Shown in pieces: positions 8,285 to 55,447 of a DNA stretch of 64,000 nt. The notes beneath the pieces were generated by a model. That model did no database searches and was not told where the DNA came from. It was given only the letters and a program-made list of their open reading frames with translations. Where the stretch lies: positions 1 to 64,000 of IMG/VR virus record IMGVR_UViG_3300005518_000003. The stretch is one strand, 5' to 3'. The stretch's first letter is position 1. Each line of letters begins with the position of its first letter. The DNA comes from a virus. The position numbers were made by a program, and so were the translations under genes.

Positions 8285-8758
8285 CTATTTGTGAAGCGTG
8301 AAGATGTGCGCTCCGCGGAACTCAGGAAGCTGCACGCCAGAGCCATCGGGCGGTTTCGTCGCCCATTGCCCTTGGTAGTCGTCTCCGCCGATCCCGAGAA
8401 TCTTCACGTTGAAGACCTTCGGGATCCCTTTGTCTCCGTACGTGAACACGAGCGAAGCGGTCATGCCGATATGAGCGTCCCTGTCCGGATCGAGATTGGC
8501 GGGACGAATTCCGCGAACATCGCGAAGAACCCACCCTCCACCGAAATCCGATTCGTCGAAATTCGGTGTCGTGCCCGCGTAGTACGACCCCGGCGGAAGG
8601 GAGAGCGGAAAGCCGGGTTGCCATCCATACGGTGGTTTGAGGTCTTGCGGCGGCGGAAGCTCTTTCTTTGAGCTTCGCCATCGCAGGAAGAATCCACCTA
8701 CGCTTGCGAGGACGAGTCCGCCTCCAGCAGCAAGGGCAATTCGTTGGCCGCGCTCCAT
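8285..8758 (-). CDS. Membrane-anchored virion-type protein
   Basis: A 157-residue protein. Residues 7-27 (IALAAGGGLVLASVGGFFLRW) form one N-terminal membrane helix followed by a basic stop-transfer patch. A proline-rich linker leads to a soluble beta domain of about 110 residues rich in Gly, Asp and aromatic residues. There is no signal-peptidase site. The plan recurs in many proteins of this region and fits proteins anchored in a virion membrane. No family recognised. Confidence 0.55.
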   Translation of the reverse strand: MERGQRIALAAGGGLVLASVGGFFLRWRSSKKELPPPQDLKPPYGWQPGFPLSLPPGSYYAGTTPNFDESDFGGGWVLRDVRGIRPANLDPDRDAHIGMTASLVFTYGDKGIPKVFNVKILGIGGDDYQGQWATKPPDGSGVQLPEFRGAHIFTLHK

Positions 8759-9340: not shown

Positions 9341-9945
9341 TTTGGTCCCTGATCGTTGGGCTCAAACTCGGCGTCGATCTCACCTGTCTGCGGAGCTTGC
9401 TTCTCCATGGTCGATCCGAAAACGATCATGCGAAGAAAGTCCTGAAGGACTTCGCCGATAGGCTGCTTCTCAGAGAGAATGCGCTCGATTTTTTCCTTCG
9501 TCTCGAAGCTGAAGACGTGAAAGTTCGATCCGCCTTGCCTCTTTTTGAAGGAAATCTCGACCTCGATCCTGTCGATGTTGTCGGCGAAAACGGCCACACC
9601 TTGGTCGACGACGAAGTTCACCATTTTGGCTGGACCAGCATCGGCCGCGGACTTGATCGCTTCGATGTCGATGAGATCTTTCCAGTTGATCCCGGCGAGT
9701 TTGCCCATTTTTTGGATAAGCGTCGTGTAACCGTACACCGCAAGGAGCACCGGCCATCCAAACGAAACGGTGAGAGCCACCAGCTTTAGGAACTTCGCAG
9801 GTTCCTTCACGCCGTGAAAGGCTGGAATCGCTCCGAGAAACGGCAGCATCGGTGTGATCTTCCAGATGAGGTACGCGTACGCGCCGCACGCGATCGTCAT
9901 GTAGATGAGCGACGAGACGATGATGAAAAGCTGCCAGTGAGCCAT
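9337..9945 (-). CDS. Two-helix membrane protein
   Basis: A 202-residue protein. The ATG at 9945 (MAHWQLFIIVSSLIYM) forms TGATG with the stop of the GroES-like gene. Residues 4-30 and about 55-75 are membrane helices. The cytoplasm-like C-terminal 120 residues are soluble and charged. No family recognised. Coupling to the co-chaperonin gene suggests a structural or assembly role. Confidence 0.55.
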   Translation of the reverse strand: MAHWQLFIIVSSLIYMTIACGAYAYLIWKITPMLPFLGAIPAFHGVKEPAKFLKLVALTVSFGWPVLLAVYGYTTLIQKMGKLAGINWKDLIDIEAIKSAADAGPAKMVNFVVDQGVAVFADNIDRIEVEISFKKRQGGSNFHVFSFETKEKIERILSEKQPIGEVLQDFLRMIVFGSTMEKQAPQTGEIDAEFEPNDQGPK

Positions 9946-10535
9946 CAGTCCTCTTCGATCGCGGCGCGAAGCTGATCGTCTGCGACGACGACATGAGCTT
10001 CGCCGCCGATGGTGATCTCTGGCGAGTAGTTGTGGAAGTAGAGGACACGTTGCCCGATAACGACGTCTGGCATCGGCCACCGTTTTCCGCCCTTCTGTCG
10101 CATGCCAGGACCCATAGCCACGATCGTGCCAGAGACAAGGGCCTCTTTTTGCTGGCGCTCCTTTTGGTAGCTCTTCGGGATCACGATGCTGCCCACCTTT
10201 TCCTCGGGGGGATCGGGAAGAAGCAGCACTTTGTTGCCGATCGGTCGAAGCGTACCGTTCTCGAGCACGCCGTGGATGTCGAATTCTTCGAGGAGCAAGA
10301 ACTCGCCCTCCTCGAGCTTCACCACTTTGCCGGCAGAGCGAACGAACATGACGCGATCGTCCGTCTTCACGTCGAGAACGAACTCGGTCCCCACCGAGAC
10401 AACTTCACCTTCGGACGTCGGGATTTGCGCGGAGTCGGGGATGTGGATGAGTCCGATCTTTTTCTGGATCTCGTCGCGCTTGACGAGCACGCAGTCGTGG
10501 AGCGTCCGAAAATTCACCTTTCGTTCTTCGGTCAC
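9945..10535 (-). CDS. Tandem GroES-like co-chaperonin (two Cpn10 domains)
   Basis: A 196-residue protein. The GTG at 10535 overlaps the upstream stop (GTGA) and has GGAGAAGAAAG upstream. Residues about 8-90 match a Cpn10 barrel: TLHDCVLVKRDEIQKKIG, IPDSAQIPTSEGEVVSVG, and a closing LLLEEFDIHGVL. Residues about 92-190 repeat the plan: LRPIGNKVLLLPDPPEEKVG, IVIPKSY, GTIVAMGPGM, and VIGQRVLYFHNYSPEITIGG. GroES is normally one domain of 95-100 residues. A fused pair would cap host GroEL with altered symmetry and could, like T4 gp31, help fold a viral capsid protein. The domain calls are strong; the viral role is inferred. Confidence 0.8.
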   Translation of the reverse strand: MTEERKVNFRTLHDCVLVKRDEIQKKIGLIHIPDSAQIPTSEGEVVSVGTEFVLDVKTDDRVMFVRSAGKVVKLEEGEFLLLEEFDIHGVLENGTLRPIGNKVLLLPDPPEEKVGSIVIPKSYQKERQQKEALVSGTIVAMGPGMRQKGGKRWPMPDVVIGQRVLYFHNYSPEITIGGEAHVVVADDQLRAAIEED

Positions 10536-10801
10536 TTTTCTTTCTTCTCCACGAGAACCCATTCCTGTTTCGCTTTGTCCCAGATCCATTCGTACCCGCG
10601 CTTTCTCTTCGTTGGCTTCCGTCCGCGAGGATTTCGCGAACCGGGGTTCTTTTTGTGACCGATCCGCGCCGCTCGCGCAGCCTCTTCGGGTGTGAAACGG
10701 TGAGGTCTCTTCTTCGAGCGAGCCGCAGCCAGACCACCCTGCCGAGCTGTCTCGCGGAGTGTTTCAGCGTCCATTCTGGCAAAACCGGTGCGTTTTCCCA
10801 C
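10532..10801 (-). CDS. Small basic protein
   Basis: An 89-residue, Lys/Arg-rich protein (GTG start at 10801; an internal ATG at 10774 is the alternative). A helical segment ETARQGGLAAARSKKRPHRF precedes KKNPGSRNPRGRKPTKRKRG and an aromatic tail (YEWIWDKAKQEWVLV). The GGTAGAGTAAG box lies 9 bases before the GTG. It could bind DNA; the NP-plus-arginine patch resembles those in membrane proteins here. Confidence 0.5.
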   Translation of the reverse strand: MGKRTGFARMDAETLRETARQGGLAAARSKKRPHRFTPEEAARAARIGHKKNPGSRNPRGRKPTKRKRGYEWIWDKAKQEWVLVEKKEK

Positions 10802-11278: not shown

Positions 11279-11352
11279 GGGCTCGTAGCTCAATTGGATA
11301 GAGCGCCGCTCTACGGAAGCGGAGGTTGAAGGATCATTCCCTTCCGGGCTCA
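11279..11352 (+). tRNA. tRNA-Arg (anticodon ACG)
   Basis: Cloverleaf: acceptor GGGCTCG/CGGGCTC with two G-U pairs, D-arm GCTCAATTGGATAGAGC, anticodon arm CCGCT-CTACGGA-AGCGG with anticodon ACG after U33, T-arm GAAGG-ATCATTC-CCTTC. The T-loop lacks the usual TTCGA order, but all four stems close. CCA is not encoded. It lies directly after the 10872-11273 gene. Confidence 0.85.
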
Positions 11353-11359
11353 CTCTTTT

Positions 11360-11617
11360 TTACGGAATCGGTCCGCCACCCGGCGGAACCGGCGGCGGCA
11401 CGGGAATCGGAACCGTTTTGCCCGTCCACGGCTGCGCGAACGATGCAGGCGGCTGCGGTGTGGGCGGAAGGTTCGTGTTCGGGTTGAGCGCGACGTTCGT
11501 CGGCAGCGAGTCGTTCGGCTCGTGTGGGAACGTCAGCTCCCAAAGCTTCTGCGTCTGCGCGATCGGGTACGGAAACGGTTCACGTTTCGAGAGTGCGATT
11601 GCTCTTTTCCAGCCCAT
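11360..11617 (-). CDS. Small proline-rich protein
   Basis: An 85-residue protein (MGWKRAIALSKREPFPYPIAQ). The first half is mixed; the second half is almost all Pro, Gly, Asn and Val and ends GGGPIP. Low complexity makes function unreadable. It is convergent with the tRNA-Arg gene and lies just downstream of the tRNA pair on its own strand. Confidence 0.45.
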   Translation of the reverse strand: MGWKRAIALSKREPFPYPIAQTQKLWELTFPHEPNDSLPTNVALNPNTNLPPTPQPPASFAQPWTGKTVPIPVPPPVPPGGGPIP

Positions 11618-11723
11618 GGGAAGAGAATAGCACGCGACCCCGTGGTACGTTCTATGTGCTTCGCGTGTGCGTTCCTGGGAGTTTCCGGATCGACTTGTCG
11701 GCGCGCACGCGAAGCTTCTCTAG

Positions 11724-11796
11724 AGCTCGGGGCCGGATTCGAACCGACATGGTTCCGCTTACGAAACGGGGGCTCTGCCAATTGAGTTACCCGAGC
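11724..11796 (-). tRNA. tRNA-Thr (anticodon CGT)
   Basis: Acceptor GCTCGGG/CCCGAGC is perfect. The D-arm holds CTCAATTGGCAGAG. The anticodon loop TTCGTAA reads CGT after U33 (one mismatch at the stem base). The T-arm GTCGG-TTCGAAT-CCGGC is canonical. No CCA is encoded. Only 4-5 bases separate it from the tRNA-Gly upstream. Confidence 0.88.
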
Positions 11797-11800
11797 GCGG

Positions 11801-11872
11801 AGAGGGCGGTGAGATTCGAACTCACACTGCACGGTTTGGAAGACCGGCCTACGACCGTCGTATTGCGCCCTC
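11801..11872 (-). tRNA. tRNA-Gly (anticodon TCC)
   Basis: Acceptor GAGGGCG/CGCCCTC is perfect. The anticodon loop CTTCCAA reads TCC. The T-arm GTGAG-TTCGAAT-CTCAC is canonical. The D-arm is unusual, with a TACGA/TCGTA-type stem and a very small loop. It begins 4 bases after the stop of the 11877-12218 gene, so it is probably cut from the same transcript. Confidence 0.85.
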
Positions 11873-11876
11873 GCGC

Positions 11877-12218
11877 TTAGCTGACGGGCGTCACCCGTGT
11901 GCCACCTGTCGTCCCGGTGGTCAGCCGCTCGGTGTATTTGATTTCGCCTGGTCCCGCGGGTTCTTCGCGAAACCAATCGTTTCCTTCGCGCGCGAAACAG
12001 ATCGGTTCGCTCATTTCCACCTGATCACGGTGGAGAAGACCAATCGGCACGCCTTCTTCGATCAAGTAGGGGACCTCGAGCGTTCGAAACTCGGAGTTGC
12101 CGCGGAGCATGTGACGGAGGTCCATGCCGCCGTACAGCGCAGGCTTCGGACGCAGGAAGGGGAAGATCGCGTACACGATCGCCAAGAGTCCGGCGACGAT
12201 GAAGTTGCGACGTTCCAT
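11877..12218 (-). CDS. Membrane protein carrying a capsid-protein-derived segment
   Basis: A 113-residue protein. Residues 5-22 (NFIVAGLLAIVYAIFPFL) are one membrane helix. Directly after it comes YGGMDLRHMLRGNSEFR, identical over 17 residues to the large capsid candidate at 16008-17390, then a diverged continuation (VPYLIEEGVPIGLL against LPYIIGAGIPIGLV). At DNA level 39 bases are identical (12096-12134 and 16437-16475). The remaining 50 residues are unrelated. It looks like a membrane anchor fused to a piece of the major virion protein. Confidence 0.65.
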   Translation of the reverse strand: MERRNFIVAGLLAIVYAIFPFLRPKPALYGGMDLRHMLRGNSEFRTLEVPYLIEEGVPIGLLHRDQVEMSEPICFAREGNDWFREEPAGPGEIKYTERLTTGTTGGTRVTPVS

Positions 12219-12223
12219 GCAGG

Positions 12224-12234
12224 AGAGACTACAC
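12224..12234 (-). promoter_or_regulatory. Promoter -10-like box, GTGTAGTCTC
   Basis: Leftward GTGTAGTCTC ends 5 bases before the ATG of the 11877-12218 gene. It resembles the TAGTCTC form seen at 8251 and 26927. The short distance would give an almost leaderless message carrying this gene and the two tRNAs. Confidence 0.35.
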
Positions 12235-12249
12235 GATCGCGGCCCAATG

Positions 12250-12696
12250 TCACGCCGCGACGAGCGTGACAAGAGCTTGCCAGATGACCTGGTCTTTCGT
12301 GCCGACGCTGAGAGTGAGAGCACCGCGGGATCCCGGATCCGTTCCTGGAGGGATCATTAGATAGAGCTGCCCGAGCTCTCTTTTTTCCCAAAGCATTGCA
12401 AAGTCACCCGTAAACATTTCGTTATCGCCGATATCATTCCGAGCAACGATCTCGGGAGGGATTTTGATCCACAAAAAGTCCGCTGTCGGTCGAAGGAGAA
12501 ACGCCCCGTTGTCTCCGTCATGAAGAAGAAGCGGTGCATTGAGGTTGACTGACTTCGGCTGCGCTTTGGATGGAAGAAACGCGATTGGAACGCCTTGGGC
12601 CGCTGCTTTTTTCGGCCAGAAGACGATCGCTCCTGCGGCAACTCCCGCCACTCCCGCAGCAGCGAGCCACGCCCACTTTTTTGTTTCGGGTGTCAT
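12250..12696 (-). CDS. Membrane-anchored virion-type protein
   Basis: A 148-residue protein. The ATG at 12696 (MTPETKKWAWLAAAG) is chosen because the membrane helix (about residues 8-27, ending FWPKK) starts right after it. A soluble beta-rich domain of about 115 residues follows (NLNAPLLLHDGDNGAFLLRP, LTLSVGTKDQVIWQALV). No lipobox or cleavage site is seen. Same plan as its neighbours; family unknown. Confidence 0.6.
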   Translation of the reverse strand: MTPETKKWAWLAAAGVAGVAAGAIVFWPKKAAAQGVPIAFLPSKAQPKSVNLNAPLLLHDGDNGAFLLRPTADFLWIKIPPEIVARNDIGDNEMFTGDFAMLWEKRELGQLYLMIPPGTDPGSRGALTLSVGTKDQVIWQALVTLVAA

Positions 12697-12700
12697 GACG

Positions 12701-13291
12701 TCACGCGTGCCGGCGTCGACGGTGGCGAGCTCCGCCCTTTTTTGGTTTCGCAAGGACGGCCCACCCGATGATGCCAAGTCCGAGCACCGCCGCGCCGCCG
12801 AGAATCCACGGCGTGTAATCAGACTCCGTGGTCGTCCCGGTCGGTGGAACGGACACGGGAGTGATTCCGCCGCCACCGCCTTGAACAGGACCCGTTCCGT
12901 TGTGTGACTTCGTGTAGCCGACGCCACCGAGGTAGTCGGTCGCGACGTAGCCTTCTTTGCCGGAAAGCTCACCGCTCAAGACTTTGACGTGTGCCCAGTT
13001 GTGGCCACCGGCGTTGTAAACCATTTGCGCGTCCGTATCGACCGTATCGACCGGTTCGACGACGACGTTGTTGTTCGCGCCGTATCTGTTGTTGAAGCGA
13101 CCGATCTCGGCTCCGTTCGCTGTTTGACGAAGCGCCACCTGCGTCCCCGTGATCTCGTACGTGCCGGCAGGAACTTTTTCGCGAAGATTTGGATCCCCGA
13201 GAATGCCGAGACCCTCGTAGACGGACCCGAACCACGCCCCGAGACCAGCGGCGAGTTGAACTTCTTCGTGTTTGACGAGTTGCGTGTCCAT
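12701..13291 (-). CDS. SH3-like domain protein with C-terminal membrane anchor
   Basis: A 196-residue protein preceded by AAAGGACAGAAC. Residues about 45-125 form a bacterial SH3-like module (ITGTQVALRQTANGAEIGRF ... WAHVKVLSGELSGKEGYVATDY). A Gly/Pro/Thr linker leads to a C-terminal membrane helix (ILGGAAVLGLGIIGWAVLA) and a basic tail (RHRRRRHA). SH3 modules bind peptidoglycan or proteins. Anchored this way the domain could project from a virion membrane. Confidence 0.65.
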   Translation of the reverse strand: MDTQLVKHEEVQLAAGLGAWFGSVYEGLGILGDPNLREKVPAGTYEITGTQVALRQTANGAEIGRFNNRYGANNNVVVEPVDTVDTDAQMVYNAGGHNWAHVKVLSGELSGKEGYVATDYLGGVGYTKSHNGTGPVQGGGGGITPVSVPPTGTTTESDYTPWILGGAAVLGLGIIGWAVLAKPKKGGARHRRRRHA

Positions 13292-13301
13292 GTTCTGTCC
13301 T

Positions 13302-14384
13302 TTATGCAGGCGCGAGATGGCGCGGTCGAGATTCCTTGAGGGCCTTCCAAACGAGAAAGCCTCCTCCTCCGATCGTAGCTGCGATGGCAGTGCCGAGCAG
13401 CACCTTGCTTGTGGTGCTCATTCCCTGCGGAGGAGTCATCGGGGTCGGAGACGGAGATGGTTGCGGCTGCGGCTGTTTGATCTGCGTTCCAGCACCCGGT
13501 TCAACATACAACTGCGCGACCCAGCCAGCTCCGTGTGTCTGCGTTCCGACGCGCACGTAATCGATTCCGGCAAAATTCGGATCATTGTTCGGAGCTACGG
13601 TTTCGTCTTGCTTGACCATCCACTTGGGATCGGTCTCGACATCACCGAAGACGTACACATTTTCGCCGTTCTGAAGCGTTGCGATCGCGGTGGACTCGTA
13701 CTCCGGCTTCGCACGAAGAATCACCCCGGTACCTTTGATGTGGTAGTTCCCCGGCGTCGGATGTTCGTCGTATTCCATCCCGAGTCCGCGCTTTGACGGG
13801 CGGTAGTACGGATAGATGCCGACCCGCGCGCCTGGCGACGAAACCGGATTGACGGGACCCATCTGCGAGGCACCGTGTTCCGGCGAGCCAACTGGCCACA
13901 CCGGTCCCATTCGTTCGCTGCTTGGCATGTAGTAGGGATAGATCCCACCAGGGGCTCCAGCCGATGACGGACGAAACGATTCGATGTCTCCGAGCCCAGC
14001 GACACCGTAAAGACCCGTGATGAAACTGGCCGCGACGACGCAAACGAAGTACGCATGCGGCGAAGCTCGCTCACCCCACCATCCACCGCCTACGAATGCT
14101 GCACGCCATCCAGCTTGGAAAGGAAGCTTCGAGAGCGTGGCAACGACGTCGGAAGGAACCGGACCCGCGGGAGGCATCCACGAACACGATGCCGGCTCGA
14201 CGTAAACGTTAGGACCCCAAAACCAGGGCCAATCGAACCACGGCCCGCCACCGCGGAAGCGACGAAATCTACCCCCGTGGGAAACTGTATGATGAAATCC
14301 ACCATGCGGGTGTCCCCCACCGCCCATAGGTGGAGCGCCGAGTCCGATGATCGCACTTACGAGCTCGAGGTCTTGCGCGTTCAT
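13302..14384 (-). CDS. Large SH3-like protein with Gly/His-rich head and C-terminal membrane anchor
   Basis: A 360-residue protein. Residues 15-50 are Gly/His/Trp/Pro-rich. A possible membrane segment lies near residues 110-128 (AYFVCVVAASFITGLYGVAG). Two IYPYYxPS motifs appear at about 145 and 200. An SH3-like domain (NYHIKGTGVILRAKPEYEST ... VRVGTQTHGAGWVAQLYVEP) spans about 215-300, followed by a Pro/Gln linker and a final membrane helix (VLLGTAIAATIGGGGFLVW). It probably reaches from the membrane outward. Start overlaps the previous stop (ATGA). Confidence 0.65.
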   Translation of the reverse strand: MNAQDLELVSAIIGLGAPPMGGGGHPHGGFHHTVSHGGRFRRFRGGGPWFDWPWFWGPNVYVEPASCSWMPPAGPVPSDVVATLSKLPFQAGWRAAFVGGGWWGERASPHAYFVCVVAASFITGLYGVAGLGDIESFRPSSAGAPGGIYPYYMPSSERMGPVWPVGSPEHGASQMGPVNPVSSPGARVGIYPYYRPSKRGLGMEYDEHPTPGNYHIKGTGVILRAKPEYESTAIATLQNGENVYVFGDVETDPKWMVKQDETVAPNNDPNFAGIDYVRVGTQTHGAGWVAQLYVEPGAGTQIKQPQPQPSPSPTPMTPPQGMSTTSKVLLGTAIAATIGGGGFLVWKALKESRPRHLAPA

Positions 14385-15250
14385 TCTTCGGGGTCGTCGA
14401 TCTCGAAGACCAACGCTCCTGCCACACGCCAGATGATGGCGGTTGGGAAATTGAGAAGAAATTGTTCTTCGGGCGAGAGGCCGCCTTCAAAAAACGGATT
14501 CGGTGCGGGAATTCGAACACGGCCTTCTTGCGAATCAGGATTCGTTTGCTGCACGCTCGCGTAGAACGCGATTCGGCACGGTCCCTGAAGACGAATGTCG
14601 AGTGCGTTCCAGTCGTGCGCATCGTCCCAGCGCGTTTTGAGATCGTAGAACGTATCGAGCTCACCCGTTACGCCCTCACCTGGTGGTTTTCCTCCGAGCG
14701 GAGGCGTGTACGCCGTGAGCTGCACGTAAAACGGCGTTGGTGTCGCAACGGTATTGAAGAGCAATCCAGGTCCAGCGGAATCGCGGAACGCGAGGTTCTG
14801 CTGATTTCCGCCGGTAAGCGGATCCATCCTTTGCTCTTGAAGTGGCGGACGACCATACGGTTCGTTCTTCCCCATTAGGCGCATGTGCCACGAGATATTT
14901 CCGTCCGGCAGCTTGAAATTCGGCGTTGTTACCCACTGCTCGACGACGCGCGGTCCCGCAGGAGGTCCTGTCACGTCGAGCCTGGTACCGAGCGACCAGC
15001 CCATGCGAAATCCGCGAAGCCAAACGTTGCACGCTTCCGGAAAATTCGCCGTGCAGAGCAAAAAGAGGAAACGGTTCGTCGGACCGTGGGTGACGAGCGC
15101 AGGCACACGAAGGCCAATCGATGACGTTCCGCCGTACGGATCGCCAGCGAGACCCTGCAATGCTTCGTCGATGCCGGTCGAGACGAGCTCGACTCGGCGT
15201 CTTGGAATCACCAGGCTTGGATATCGTCGGAGGTGAGCGACTGCGCCCAT
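14381..15250 (-). CDS. Probable virion structural protein
   Basis: A 289-residue, beta-rich, soluble protein (MGAVAHLRRYPSLVIPRRR) preceded by GAGGCTGA. Long strands, abundant Pro/Gly turns and an acidic end (VFEIDDPEE) suit a capsid or vertex protein. It lies between the SH3 protein and the capsid candidate in one coupled operon. I do not recognise a family. Confidence 0.6.
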   Translation of the reverse strand: MGAVAHLRRYPSLVIPRRRVELVSTGIDEALQGLAGDPYGGTSSIGLRVPALVTHGPTNRFLFLLCTANFPEACNVWLRGFRMGWSLGTRLDVTGPPAGPRVVEQWVTTPNFKLPDGNISWHMRLMGKNEPYGRPPLQEQRMDPLTGGNQQNLAFRDSAGPGLLFNTVATPTPFYVQLTAYTPPLGGKPPGEGVTGELDTFYDLKTRWDDAHDWNALDIRLQGPCRIAFYASVQQTNPDSQEGRVRIPAPNPFFEGGLSPEEQFLLNFPTAIIWRVAGALVFEIDDPEE

Positions 15251-15258
15251 TCAGCCTC

Positions 15259-15927
15259 CTACGACTTGCACGCCGTGATGTAGCAGTCCGGAATCTGGAT
15301 TCCGCACATATCACGAAGTCGAAGCAGCGCTTCGCGATCCGTGATGTTGACGCCGTCGAACTTGTCCGTGTCGGGCGTAAGCGTTTTGAACGTCATCACG
15401 ACCGTGATTGGGAAGTCCGGGAGCTGGACACGCGCGAGAAAATCGACCTGGAGCTGCTGTTGGTACGTCATCACCCAGATGCCGTTTGGAAATCCGGGTC
15501 CTGGCGTTCCGGCGGCTTTCGCGAGCGTCGAGAGTGGCGTGAACTTCGATGCGATCGACGGCCGCGGCATGCCGACGACGTTGATCTTCGCTTCGATGCC
15601 GCTTTGGAGCGAAAAGAAGAAGTCGCTCTGCGGTTGAAGCACGTTCTGCGGCGTGCGGTCGCGTGTGATCGTGTACTCGATCTCCTCGATGATCGTGTCC
15701 GCGACGATCTTCACGTCGCTTCCGACTTCCGGATTCAGATTGCGATCCGGGTTGTCGAACGTCGTACGGACGTTGATGTAGTAGGGCACGAACGGAATGC
15801 CCTGCGCGCGCGCGAGTGCGAGTCGCGGATACCCGAGTGAGAGAAATCGGTAGATGTCCCTCAGCCAGTGATCGATCCCGCATGCCCCGGCGCAGTCGCC
15901 GAATCCCTTCTTGAGCTCGTCATTCAT
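15259..15927 (-). CDS. Probable virion structural protein
   Basis: A 222-residue soluble protein. It opens with a cysteine-containing helix (GFGDCAGACGIDHWLRDIYR) and continues as a strand-rich domain (YYINVRTTFDNPDRN, FPITVVMTFKTL), ending with a cysteine-bearing segment (MCGIQIPDCYITACKS). It lies directly downstream of the capsid candidate, separated by a structured 80-base gap. Possibly a minor capsid protein; no family match by eye. Confidence 0.6.
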   Translation of the reverse strand: MNDELKKGFGDCAGACGIDHWLRDIYRFLSLGYPRLALARAQGIPFVPYYINVRTTFDNPDRNLNPEVGSDVKIVADTIIEEIEYTITRDRTPQNVLQPQSDFFFSLQSGIEAKINVVGMPRPSIASKFTPLSTLAKAAGTPGPGFPNGIWVMTYQQQLQVDFLARVQLPDFPITVVMTFKTLTPDTDKFDGVNITDREALLRLRDMCGIQIPDCYITACKS

Positions 15928-15945
15928 GGGGTCTCTCGACGCCTC

Positions 15946-16000
15946 AGCCCCTCGGCCTTTCGGCGTCGGGGCTTGGCGTAGCTAGCGCGGCTTTCGCCGC
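15946..16000 (-). promoter_or_regulatory. Two RNA hairpins with GNRA-type loops after the capsid gene
   Basis: In the leftward transcript GCGGC-GAAA-GCCGC is followed by AGCCCC(GAC)GCC-GAAA-GGC(CGA)GGGGCT and then GAGGC. No U-run follows, so these are not classic terminators. The second hairpin is built like the one at 17461-17488. Confidence 0.5.
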
Positions 16001-16007
16001 GTCAGCG

Positions 16008-17390
16008 TTAGATGTTGACGAAGCCGCACTCGCACTCCGAGCAGAGTGCATCGCGCGCGTCCGCGTTGTTGCGGAGGAACGTCATGAGGTCGCCGTCGAG
16101 CTCGCGGCCCTTGACGAGCATCGAGAGCTTGAGGTCGCCCATCTTGTAGAAGGCGCGCTCCGCGAAGACCGCCTGCGAGTAGTTGACGATCGCCGCGGGC
16201 GGCACGTCGAGCGATTGCTCGAGCATGACCGGCGAGCCGCTGACCGTTCCGCCGAAGTTGATGTTCGTCGCGTCGACGATGAACGGAGGAATCACGCCGT
16301 TGCCCTGACGGCCCTGCGTGACCGAGAGGTAGTCGCGCATGATGTCGCCCTGGGTGTCGTCGACCTGCTGGAGGACGAGACCGATCGGGATGCCTGCGCC
16401 GATGATGTACGGCAAATCGAGCTTTCGGAACTCGCTGTTGCCGCGGAGCATGTGACGGAGGTCCATGCCGCCGTAGGTGACGGGCGCGAGCTCGAACGCG
16501 CGCGACGGACGGAATTCACCGACCGGTACGCCGCCGACCGTGAGCACGCCCTCGCGGATGAAGTCGATCTTGAGGAAGTCGAACGCCGTTCCGAGCGAGT
16601 CGTAGTAGTCGTTCGTGCGACGAATCTCGGCGAGAACTGCGTCCTCGCTGAGACCCGACGAGCCGTCCTGAGCGTTCGGCGGCATGTACGCCGTGTGACG
16701 GAGGATTTCGTCGAGGATGTTCCACTTCGTGCCGATCGCCCAGCGGAGATCGTACGCGCGCACGAGGTGCCACGCGACGTAGTTGGCCCACGCACCCCAC
16801 TGAAGGATGGCAGGACGCATGAACTGCGTCGGCGTCTGACCGTCGAAATTGTCACCGAGGGCTCCGTTCACGATGTCGGCGACGGTGAAGACATCGGGGC
16901 TCGGCGGCTTCGCTTGGCCGACGACCGGGTGCGTCCACGCGTTGCCGAGAATCGACCACGACTTCGGCTCGGGTTCGAGGTGAAATCCGATCGCGCACGC
17001 GAGCATGTGGGTGTTGAGCTCGCCGTTCTGCGGCATCGTCGATTCGACGAATGCCACACCTTCGACGCTCTTCGAATTTCCGAAGAGATCGATCTCGCTC
17101 GAGAAGTTCTTCTCGATCGCCTGGTCGGTGATCGGGCCGACGAGCGTCCAGCGCGTTTGATGGATCGTGTCCATCGCGTAGGACGCGCAGTCCATCGAGC
17201 TCTTGAGGAGGTTCGTGACGCCAACCGCGCCAAGACCCTTCTTCACGCCGCCTTCGTAAGAGCGGACCTTCTCGATGCTGATCGGCTCGCCAAGGCCGAC
17301 TTTCTTGATCTCGATCTCCCGCTTGATTTGGCGGAACTTCGGGCGGAACGGGTGTTTCGGAGTCGACGGTTTGGCAAGTGCGGTGTCCAT
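16008..17390 (-). CDS. Candidate major capsid protein
   Basis: A 460-residue protein behind a strong GAGGAGAACAGC site. The N-terminal 45 residues are basic. The rest is strand-rich with Pro/Gly turns and no membrane helix, as expected for a shell protein; the C-terminus is cysteine-rich (CSECECGFVNI). Its size, likely high expression, flanking structured RNA and central place among virion-type genes make it the best major capsid candidate. I cannot tell a double jelly-roll from another fold by eye and I see no HK97 signature. Residues about 307-350 hold the YGGMDLRHMLRGNSEFR segment copied in the 11877-12218 membrane protein. Confidence 0.55.
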   Translation of the reverse strand: MDTALAKPSTPKHPFRPKFRQIKREIEIKKVGLGEPISIEKVRSYEGGVKKGLGAVGVTNLLKSSMDCASYAMDTIHQTRWTLVGPITDQAIEKNFSSEIDLFGNSKSVEGVAFVESTMPQNGELNTHMLACAIGFHLEPEPKSWSILGNAWTHPVVGQAKPPSPDVFTVADIVNGALGDNFDGQTPTQFMRPAILQWGAWANYVAWHLVRAYDLRWAIGTKWNILDEILRHTAYMPPNAQDGSSGLSEDAVLAEIRRTNDYYDSLGTAFDFLKIDFIREGVLTVGGVPVGEFRPSRAFELAPVTYGGMDLRHMLRGNSEFRKLDLPYIIGAGIPIGLVLQQVDDTQGDIMRDYLSVTQGRQGNGVIPPFIVDATNINFGGTVSGSPVMLEQSLDVPPAAIVNYSQAVFAERAFYKMGDLKLSMLVKGRELDGDLMTFLRNNADARDALCSECECGFVNI

Positions 17391-17460
17391 GCTGTTCTCC
17401 TCTGCTCTCGTGGTTGCCGCAGCCGGGTCACGAGGTGCAGTTTGGTTTTTTCAATGCCTC

Positions 17461-17488
17461 AGCCCCTCGGGCTTGCGCCGTTGGGGCT
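17461..17488 (-). promoter_or_regulatory. RNA hairpin with GNRA-type loop before the capsid gene
   Basis: Leftward AGCCCC(AAC)GGC-GCAA-GCC(CGA)GGGGCT followed by GAGGC, in the 120-base gap between the arginine-rich protein gene and the capsid candidate. It shares stem, loop class and the CGAGGGGCTGAGGC flank with the hairpin downstream of the capsid gene. Confidence 0.5.
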
Positions 17489-48299: not shown

Positions 48300-49129
48300 G
48301 TGCACGACCGTTTGTTAAGTGGGCTGGGGGGAAAACGAAACTTCTTCCGGAGCTGCTCAAACATGTGCCCGAGAAGATCGATACGTATGTCGAACCGTTC
48401 GTGGGTGGGGGAGCATTGTTCTTCGAGCTGGCGAACCAACGTCGGTTCAGGAAGGCGATCATCTGCGACATGAACGCGGAGCTGATCAACGCGTTCGTCG
48501 TCGTCTGGCGATCGTTTCCCGCGCTCGTCATCCAGCTCGAACGGCACAAAGAGAAACACTCCGAAGAATATTTCTATGAGGTGCGAGCCCTCGATACGAG
48601 CGCTCTCTCGGACGTCGCGCGCGCCGCTCGATTCATCTACTTGAACAAGACGTGCTTCAACGGCCTCTACCGTGTGAACAAGGCCGGGAAGTTCAACGTG
48701 CCGTTCGGTAAGTACAAAAACCCAACCGTCTGCGATCTCGAAAATCTTCGCGAGGTCTCGAAGCTTCTTCGCGAGGTCGAAATCGAATTCGTCGTCGCCG
48801 ATTACGGCAGGCTTCTTGAAAACCTCGATGTTTTCGGGAAGGGCGGATTCCACTTCGTTTACTGCGATCCGCCATACGACACCATCTCCAAAAACGCCGA
48901 CTTCACGAGCTACACCGAGGGCGGTTTCGGCTGGAAAGAACAAGAACGGCTCGAAGCAATCGCTCGTGCGATTCCTGCCGGACGAACAAAAATCGTTCTC
49001 AGCAATGCCGACACGCCCCGCGTCCGAAAACTCTACGAGAAGTGGACGCTTCACGAGGTGAGGGCGGAGCGATCCATCAATTCGAACCCTGACAAGCGCG
49101 GCAAGGTCGGGGAGCTCGTCATCACGTGA
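48296..49129 (+). CDS. dam: Dam-family adenine-N6 DNA methyltransferase
   Basis: A 277-residue protein. FVKWAGGKTKL at 6-16 is the N-terminal AdoMet motif, YVEPFVGGGALFFEL the F-x-G motif I region, NKTCFNGLYRVNKAGKFNVP the D12-class signature, and YCDPPYDT the DPPY catalytic motif near 190. It should methylate adenine, probably in GATC. Phage Dam enzymes protect viral DNA from host restriction. Length is close to that of Dam. Symbol by family. Confidence 0.88.
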   Translation: MSARPFVKWAGGKTKLLPELLKHVPEKIDTYVEPFVGGGALFFELANQRRFRKAIICDMNAELINAFVVVWRSFPALVIQLERHKEKHSEEYFYEVRALDTSALSDVARAARFIYLNKTCFNGLYRVNKAGKFNVPFGKYKNPTVCDLENLREVSKLLREVEIEFVVADYGRLLENLDVFGKGGFHFVYCDPPYDTISKNADFTSYTEGGFGWKEQERLEAIARAIPAGRTKIVLSNADTPRVRKLYEKWTLHEVRAERSINSNPDKRGKVGELVIT

Positions 49130-49782
49130 ACGAGCACGAAGAGAAGGTACGTCGCTTGATCGCGCTCGCTCTCAACGCGGGCGCCACGGACGGCGAATCG
49201 AGGAATGCTGCCATTCAAGCGCTGCGTCTCATCGAGAAGCACGGACTCATCGGAAATAGTTCTGGTCCGCAGGCTCCCACGGGTCGAGATGACACCGCAT
49301 ACAACCACATCGTCATCGCGAACCTTCAGGAGCGCATCCGCCTCCTCGAGTCGATGGTGCGCGGCGCGCGCATGAACGACGCACTTTTGCAAGGTCAGAT
49401 CCGACGCCTCAACGAGGATCTTGCGAGGGCGCACAACGAAATCGCTGGCCTCAAACACGAGGTCATGGAGGAGAAAGACAAAAAGCGCGATGCCGAGGAT
49501 CGTGCTCGACGCTTCCGTGATCATCGCTTTCCAACAACGGTGACTGAGCCTGTATGGAGACCCGGTCCGCATCCCATGAGCCAACCTGGTCGAGGGACGG
49601 TGCGGGACCCCGAACCATCAAACGGATCAAAGCCACGTCGCAAAATCATCCGTTCCCAGTATTCAGGGACGTGCAGCCGGTGTAAGGAACCGTTCGAAGT
49701 GGGCGATCGGATCGCCTGGCGAAAGGGCGCCGGGGCTCTGCATCTGCTCTGTTACGAGCGCGAGCTCCAGGAGCCTGCATGA
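49126..49782 (+). CDS. DUF2786-like protein with coiled coil and zinc ribbon
   Basis: A 218-residue protein with GTG start. VRRLIALALNAGATDGESRN, then AAIQALRLIEKHGL, matches the DUF2786 helical motif. A coiled coil (LQGQIRRLNEDLARAHNEIA) and a basic Pro-rich linker follow. GTCSRCKEPFEVGDRIAWRK with LLC completes a zinc site. The 54956 gene shares this two-part plan. Role unknown; it is next to the primase. Confidence 0.6.
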   Translation: MNEHEEKVRRLIALALNAGATDGESRNAAIQALRLIEKHGLIGNSSGPQAPTGRDDTAYNHIVIANLQERIRLLESMVRGARMNDALLQGQIRRLNEDLARAHNEIAGLKHEVMEEKDKKRDAEDRARRFRDHRFPTTVTEPVWRPGPHPMSQPGRGTVRDPEPSNGSKPRRKIIRSQYSGTCSRCKEPFEVGDRIAWRKGAGALHLLCYERELQEPA

Positions 49783-54693: not shown

Positions 54694-54956
54694 GCATGGG
54701 TTTTTCGCGCGAGGACCAACGGCGCGTGTTTGTCCTTTGCAAGGACCGCAGCATCACGGTTGTATGGAATTATTCACCGAAGAGCTTCATCTATCACGCA
54801 ACTGCGAACGGTTTGAAAGCCGTGTGTGGAGCGCAAACCGTACTTCAGGAAGAGGAGCCCGGCATCGGTGCGTTTGATCGATCCAAAAACGTCATGACGT
54901 GCCAAAAATGCGCAGGTCTGGTCGCGCGAACGATGCGTGTGAGAGAGCCGGCCTGA
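54690..54956 (+). CDS. Small zinc-binding-like protein
   Basis: An 88-residue protein (MSMGFSREDQRRVFVLCKDR). HATANGLKAVCGAQTVLQ and MTCQKCAGLVARTM supply a histidine and three or four cysteines. Coupled by ATGA and TGATG to its neighbours. Confidence 0.5.
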   Translation: MSMGFSREDQRRVFVLCKDRSITVVWNYSPKSFIYHATANGLKAVCGAQTVLQEEEPGIGAFDRSKNVMTCQKCAGLVARTMRVREPA

Positions 54957-55447
54957 TGAAGGAGCGCGAGACCGTCGATCGACTGATCGCGCTCGCGCTC
55001 GATCGGGGAGCATCCGAAAACGAATCCCGGAATGCCGCGCTTCTCGCGGTCAAGCTCATCGACGAGCACGACATGCTTGGCGCTCATCTCTTCGAGGAGA
55101 AAACGAAAAGGAAGCGTCCATCGATCTCGATCATGATCGAATTCAAGTCGGTGTTGGAAAAGATTCAGTCCGCCGACTTCGAGGGTGCGATTCGCGAGAT
55201 CGAAGTGATCAAGCGTCGCGCCGAACGGCTATCGCACGAGCGCATTCGAAACATGCGCGACGACATGGAGGCGAAACCGACGTGGACCGAGCAGACTACC
55301 CACCATGCCCGGCATGCGTCGCAAATCCACGAGTGTGCGCACTGCCACGAGACCATCATGCTCTGGTCGTGGATGGTGAATCCGCACCGCGGATCGATCG
55401 CGATGCACCTCCGGTGCTTTAGAGAAGGTGGCCATGGAAAACGTTGA
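54956..55447 (+). CDS. DUF2786-like protein with zinc site
   Basis: A 163-residue protein; ATG in a TGATG overlap. VDRLIALALDRGASENESRN and AALLAVKLIDEHDML match the DUF2786 motif and closely resemble the start of the 49126 gene product. A helical middle is followed by CAHCHETIMLWSWMVN and a later C, forming a zinc site. A paralogue pair. Confidence 0.6.
   Translation: MKERETVDRLIALALDRGASENESRNAALLAVKLIDEHDMLGAHLFEEKTKRKRPSISIMIEFKSVLEKIQSADFEGAIREIEVIKRRAERLSHERIRNMRDDMEAKPTWTEQTTHHARHASQIHECAHCHETIMLWSWMVNPHRGSIAMHLRCFREGGHGKR

Follow-up and report, generated by a model that had tools for sequence, protein, structure and literature searches.

A segment of a capsid candidate recurs in a small membrane protein gene

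How does a piece of a presumed viral shell protein come to lie in the gene of a small membrane protein, and could it serve a purpose there? The window analyzed here covers bases 1 to 64,000 of an IMG/VR virus record of 78,563 bases (78.5 kb), and the top internal DNA repeat in its self-comparison is a pair of stretches that align without gaps over 106 bases at 82% identity (BLASTN E value, 5e-23). One stretch lies in the gene of a 113-residue protein with a single predicted membrane helix at its N terminus, and the other lies in the gene of a 460-residue capsid candidate.

11877..12218, minus strand: 113-residue one-helix membrane protein with the copied segment (open reading frame; codon score)
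12147..12203, minus strand: predicted membrane helix, residues 6-24 (mean hydropathy 2.0 over 19 residues)
12024..12140, minus strand: capsid-candidate-like segment, residues 27-65 of the membrane protein (family profile, whole record searched)
12029..12134, minus strand: 106-base copied DNA stretch with 82% identity to 16370-16475 (pairwise match, self-comparison)
12096..12134, minus strand: identical core of 39 bases, copy in the membrane protein gene (DNA comparison)
16008..17390, minus strand: 460-residue capsid candidate (ten relatives; no known family, no fold match)
16365..16481, minus strand: source segment, residues 304-342 of the capsid candidate, among the most conserved of the family (three family alignments)
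16437..16475, minus strand: identical core of 39 bases, copy in the capsid candidate gene (DNA comparison)

At the protein level, the resemblance spans approximately 39 residues of the small protein, with a BLASTP E value of 1e-17 and an E value of 1.3e-17 for a family profile searched against the 78.5-kb record; by BLASTP, profile and self-comparison alike, the similarity of the pair is far above chance expectation. The 39 identical bases and the 17 identical residues (YGGMDLRHMLRGNSEFR) had been noticed in the initial annotation, and their positions agree exactly with ours; of the codons for these 17 residues, the identical bases span only the first 13. The record holds two copies of the segment, and neither its profile search nor the self-comparison of the window revealed a third. 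Homology is confined to the repeated part of the two genes, with unrelated flanks.

The capsid candidate and its conserved segment

Homologues of the 460-residue protein were found in ten relatives, namely, nine IMG/VR contigs (seven of them 69 to 78 kb long) and one contig of a Chloroflexota metagenome-assembled genome (MAG), with 37 to 52% identity to the window protein. The relatives have a common gene order: arginine-rich protein, 460-residue protein, 222-residue protein, and 289-residue protein. In the alignments, the stretch that was copied, YGGxDLRxMLxGNSEFR and then PYxIxxGVPIG, ranks with the best-conserved portions of the protein across the family.

Neither the protein nor its family has a match in Pfam, PHROGs, PDB sequences, or INPHARED phages. 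AlphaFold models were poor, both for the window protein (7-row alignment; pLDDT, 31) and for the homologue of relative L012 (10-row alignment; pLDDT, 46; pTM, 0.45), and a Foldseek search of the latter, low-confidence model against PDB and BFVD returned no match. Because the searches thus gave no known capsid family or fold, we infer the capsid role from the size and conservation of the protein and from the position and context of its gene.

The membrane protein gene belongs to a lineage-specific block

The small gene is an open coding frame with the codon bias of the genome; its own frame has the best codon score among the six frames in all three parts of the gene. Pfam and PHROG searches of its product gave no match, and no clear Shine-Dalgarno site precedes its ATG, as is also the case for several neighboring genes. 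Three tRNA genes (11279-11872) sit between it and a GroES gene.

11799..11872, minus strand: tRNA-Gly, 4 bases beyond the stop codon of the membrane protein gene (tRNA gene prediction)
11723..11796, minus strand: tRNA-Thr, adjoining cluster (tRNA gene prediction)
11279..11353, plus strand: tRNA-Arg, adjoining cluster (tRNA gene prediction)

Using the small protein or the family profile as the query, we searched all nine relative records and the MAG over their full length. The segment occurs once per record, inside the 460-residue homologue, and the 113-residue protein was found in none of the relatives, i.e., in a single genome only; the parent gene is present in all ten relatives and its child in none. 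An apparent extension of the match to approximately 100 residues in L013 and L014 was rejected as a product of gapped alignment that the profile does not support. The corresponding regions of the relatives yielded nothing similar to the remainder of the small protein and no positional counterpart of it, and the structural regions fetched from them contain no tRNA genes; the small gene thus lies in a block particular to the window virus. None of its one-helix neighbors (8285-8758, 11360-11617, and the frame ending at 12250) is of capsid origin.

Since the relatives have the segment once, in the 460-residue gene, the copy is best described as a partial duplication that is specific to this lineage and fused downstream of a membrane anchor; there is good support for its having arisen by partial duplication in frame. 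The absence of the segment from the membrane protein of relatives, which the initial annotation had named as a possible refutation, is inapplicable, as the relatives have no such membrane protein at all.

Relationship and divergence of the two copies

Over 105 bases, the copy differs from the window's own capsid candidate gene by 0.18, compared with 0.28 to 0.34 from the genes of the relatives; it groups with the former (support, 0.98; neighbor-joining bootstrap, 0.82), and the derived codons CGT-CAC are common to the two. The differences are distributed unevenly: all 19 fall in the remaining 66 bases (19/66) and none in the core (0/39). For the last 66 bases, the copy is 0.29 from the window gene, as far as the genes of the relatives are (15 to 24 differences), whereas for the first 39 bases, it shows 0 differences against 6 to 11 in the relatives. 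Synonymous codons follow the same division, with 0 of 11 differing in the core and 5 of 13 in the rest. If the average share for capsid pairs is assumed, 0/39 has a P value of about 0.001, but capsid pairs vary widely, the first 39 bases holding from 0 to 65% of the differences across capsid gene pairs. The initial annotation had called the copy recent, which fits the 39-base core but not the other 66 bases, which are as divergent as genes of different viruses. Judged from these alignments, the simplest reading would be that the duplication is older and that its core was homogenized with the parent at a later time, and strong selection on the core is the alternative to homogenization.

At six of the nine changed positions, the new residue is also seen in relatives, compared with a random expectation of 2.2 (P = 0.007); the tests of constraint and of mosaicism involve small numbers, 9 and 19 differences, respectively. 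Together with the open frame and the correct codon bias, this speaks against a frameshifted, decaying copy, which had been named beforehand as a refuting outcome, and subject to those small numbers the evidence argues against a decaying fragment. The earlier idea of a recombination product under selection holds up better, as the copy is partial, in frame, and lineage specific, with substitutions within the tolerance of the family.

Two other accounts of the copy's origin bear on the same data. Taken by itself, the 3′ part is not firmly placed with the window gene, and the source may therefore be a relative's gene: intervirus recombination would have brought in the segment from an unsampled relative's capsid gene, and the shared core would have been converted afterwards. 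Some 3′ residues do resemble those of other relatives (FRTLE in the G008 clade, VPYLIE in L015), and a protein tree of the 3′ part joins the copy to L015 (0.93); the grouping over 105 bases and the derived CGT-CAC codons point instead to the window gene and make a foreign source unlikely. The 39 identical bases could also suggest a DNA-level element (a recombination or packaging site) or an assembly artifact instead of a protein copy, an idea that we find hardly credible. Synonymous codons of the core vary among the relatives (5/10 differ from L009), which led us to reject both a DNA element and a family-wide codon constraint; moreover, there is no third copy, and the similarity extends beyond the core with in-frame substitutions. 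Both edges of the repeat enter unrelated sequence, so a simple misjoin at a shared k-mer would not produce it. A repeat pair of a diversity-generating retroelement was likewise rejected, as only 4 of the 19 differences involve A with either copy as the template.

A possible second capsid-like piece

The initial annotation had regarded the rest of the two proteins as unrelated. This is nearly right, except that residues 71-83 of the small protein weakly resemble a second conserved stretch of the capsid candidate, EP-x-CFTARGNAW (EPEPLCFTARGNAW in the family; residues 139-152).

11970..12008, minus strand: possible second piece, EPICFAREGNDWF, residues 71-83 of the membrane protein (shuffles, natural stretches)
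16932..16970, minus strand: counterpart in the capsid candidate, EPKSWSILGNAWT; in the family, EPLCFTARGNAWT (sequence comparison)

The score was equaled in 13 of 10,000 shuffles of the tail and in none of 341 equally long natural stretches from the genome. At the DNA level, 18 to 22 of 36 bases match, which is uninformative. The second piece precedes the main segment in the large protein and follows it in the small one. Since the resemblance was noticed after the fact, we treat it as a lead; if it is real, the small protein would consist of rearranged shell protein pieces on a membrane anchor.

Proposed function and alternative explanations

The single predicted N-terminal helix and the position of the gene in the structural module are compatible with an earlier suggestion, a membrane tether that mimics a capsid interface, and on the sequence such a tether is plausible. 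We propose that ectopic recombination in the window lineage copied approximately 39 internal codons of the presumed capsid gene, in frame, and placed them behind a short N-terminal membrane anchor, in what is now a lineage-specific block of the structural module, beside the tRNA cluster. The copy would have been retained as a protein, with substitutions drawn from the family repertoire, and its first 39 bases would later have been homogenized with the parent or held by unusually strong selection. The most probable function would be docking: if the segment lies on a surface where the shell protein makes contacts, the membrane-anchored copy could dock shell subunits to a membrane, either during assembly or in the virion. 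We put the probability of this whole proposal at roughly 40%. Within it, we infer that the small protein would be expressed, inserted into the membrane, located in the virion, and able to bind the shell, and docking is a tentative assignment. The most specific version, in which a membrane-anchored mimic of a shell protein of unknown family, built from one or two of its conserved pieces, docks the shell and is homogenized with its parent, appears rather unlikely.

The main rival to docking is a recombination by-product with no selected role, a fragment of the capsid gene that awaits loss in a variable, tRNA-adjacent block; its chances are substantial, though clearly short of even. The presence of the copy in a single genome, the lack of a clear ribosome-binding site, and the tRNA-flanked, lineage-specific neighborhood all suit a by-product, and because synonymous divergence is low, there would have been little time for decay. 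It accounts less well for an open frame whose codon bias is correct in each of its three parts, for changes limited to residues that the family tolerates (P = 0.007), for the plausible membrane helix in front of the copy, and for a 3′ part that is unbroken though as divergent as between viruses. A decoy or interference role is also conceivable, in which the membrane-displayed segment poisons the assembly of coinfecting relatives or occupies a host sensor of shell proteins. A stretch that is among the most conserved of the family is what a shared target would be expected to offer, and capsid proteins are known to trigger bacterial immunity, as reported for CapRel (PMC9712102) and for Lit and the Gol peptide (PMC3014915); these capsid-sensing systems show only that capsid segments can be recognized. 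The small protein has no defense or exclusion match, its gene lies in the structural module and not among early genes, and the copy might poison the virus's own assembly, all of which leaves such a role with a low probability. Should docking prove to be its function, a capsid-membrane adaptor would have been made by reusing part of the virus's own shell protein; YGGxDLRxMLxGNSEFR...GVPIGL would be marked as an interaction surface, and a shell protein without a known family would become open to experiment. If the copy is a by-product, it remains a record of how part of a core structural gene was duplicated in frame within a phage group that has hardly been described.

Comparison with known systems

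Like chimeric genes that arise by partial duplication, the small gene joins an in-frame copy of part of an older, conserved gene to new flanks, and its parent is family-wide while the child is lineage specific; unlike them, it places a mid-protein 39-residue stretch of a presumed shell protein on a membrane anchor. Membrane-containing tailless phages (Tectiviridae, Corticoviridae, and Vinavirales) have small virion membrane proteins, which the 113-residue protein resembles in having one helix and in the location of its gene in the structural module, where several similar proteins are encoded. We know of no small virion membrane protein in which sequence of the capsid protein itself is duplicated. 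In contrast to those phages, any virion membrane of the present group would be putative. With regard to the double or twin jelly-roll major capsid protein of the PRD1-like lineage, the capsid candidate gave no sequence family or PDB sequence match, and the low-confidence models had no Foldseek match. Capsid segments are also recognized by host factors, as in the Gol peptide of T4 gp23 with Lit and EF-Tu and in the activation of CapRel by capsid. These cases have in common with ours a short capsid stretch as a binding determinant, which would be its role here; they differ in that here the virus itself encodes the stretch a second time, in a membrane-anchored protein.

Other features of the window and its relatives

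The window record and its relatives (L009 to L015, L033 to L035) represent a small group of uncultured and poorly characterized viruses of about 70 to 78 kb with no recognizable capsid family and with a conserved module of the arginine-rich, 460-, 222-, and 289-residue proteins, GroES, and a transglutaminase-like protein. The MAG contig, L015 (JAGWOC010000116.1; 4.4 kb), carries the same structural module, and its binning with Chloroflexota is a weak hint to the host; a search of 400 genomes from the phylum added no further relative. At the variable locus that holds the membrane protein and tRNA genes in the window, relatives encode collagen-like GATGATG repeat proteins (L010, 14040-14768; L012, 15250-17349; L014, 14444-15037). 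The GroES-like protein of the window (9945-10589, minus strand) has 214 residues and two Cpn10 stretches, and the relatives, whose own proteins have approximately 100 to 140 residues, match only its second half, perhaps reflecting a tandem GroES duplication in the window lineage.

The window also encodes a HerA-like ATPase and a Prim-Pol/VapE primase-helicase; as to the HerA/FtsK-type packaging ATPase of the PRD1-like lineage, the gene at 33057-34838 matches HerA DUF87 (E value, 1.7e-6) but also a PHROG labeled terminase large subunit (E value, 5e-17). A similar N-terminal region of 38 residues (58% identity) is found in the products of 49126-49782 and 54899-55447. Two nearly identical, stable hairpins on the minus strand (15942-15973 and 17457-17488; z-scores, −4.7 and −3.8) lie just upstream of the 222-residue and the 460-residue gene, respectively; further copies were found neither in the window nor in the loci of the relatives. 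Their stem, AGCCCC..GGGGCT, has its inner GCC/GGC swapped with pairing kept, and the two are perhaps processing or regulatory elements around the capsid candidate gene.
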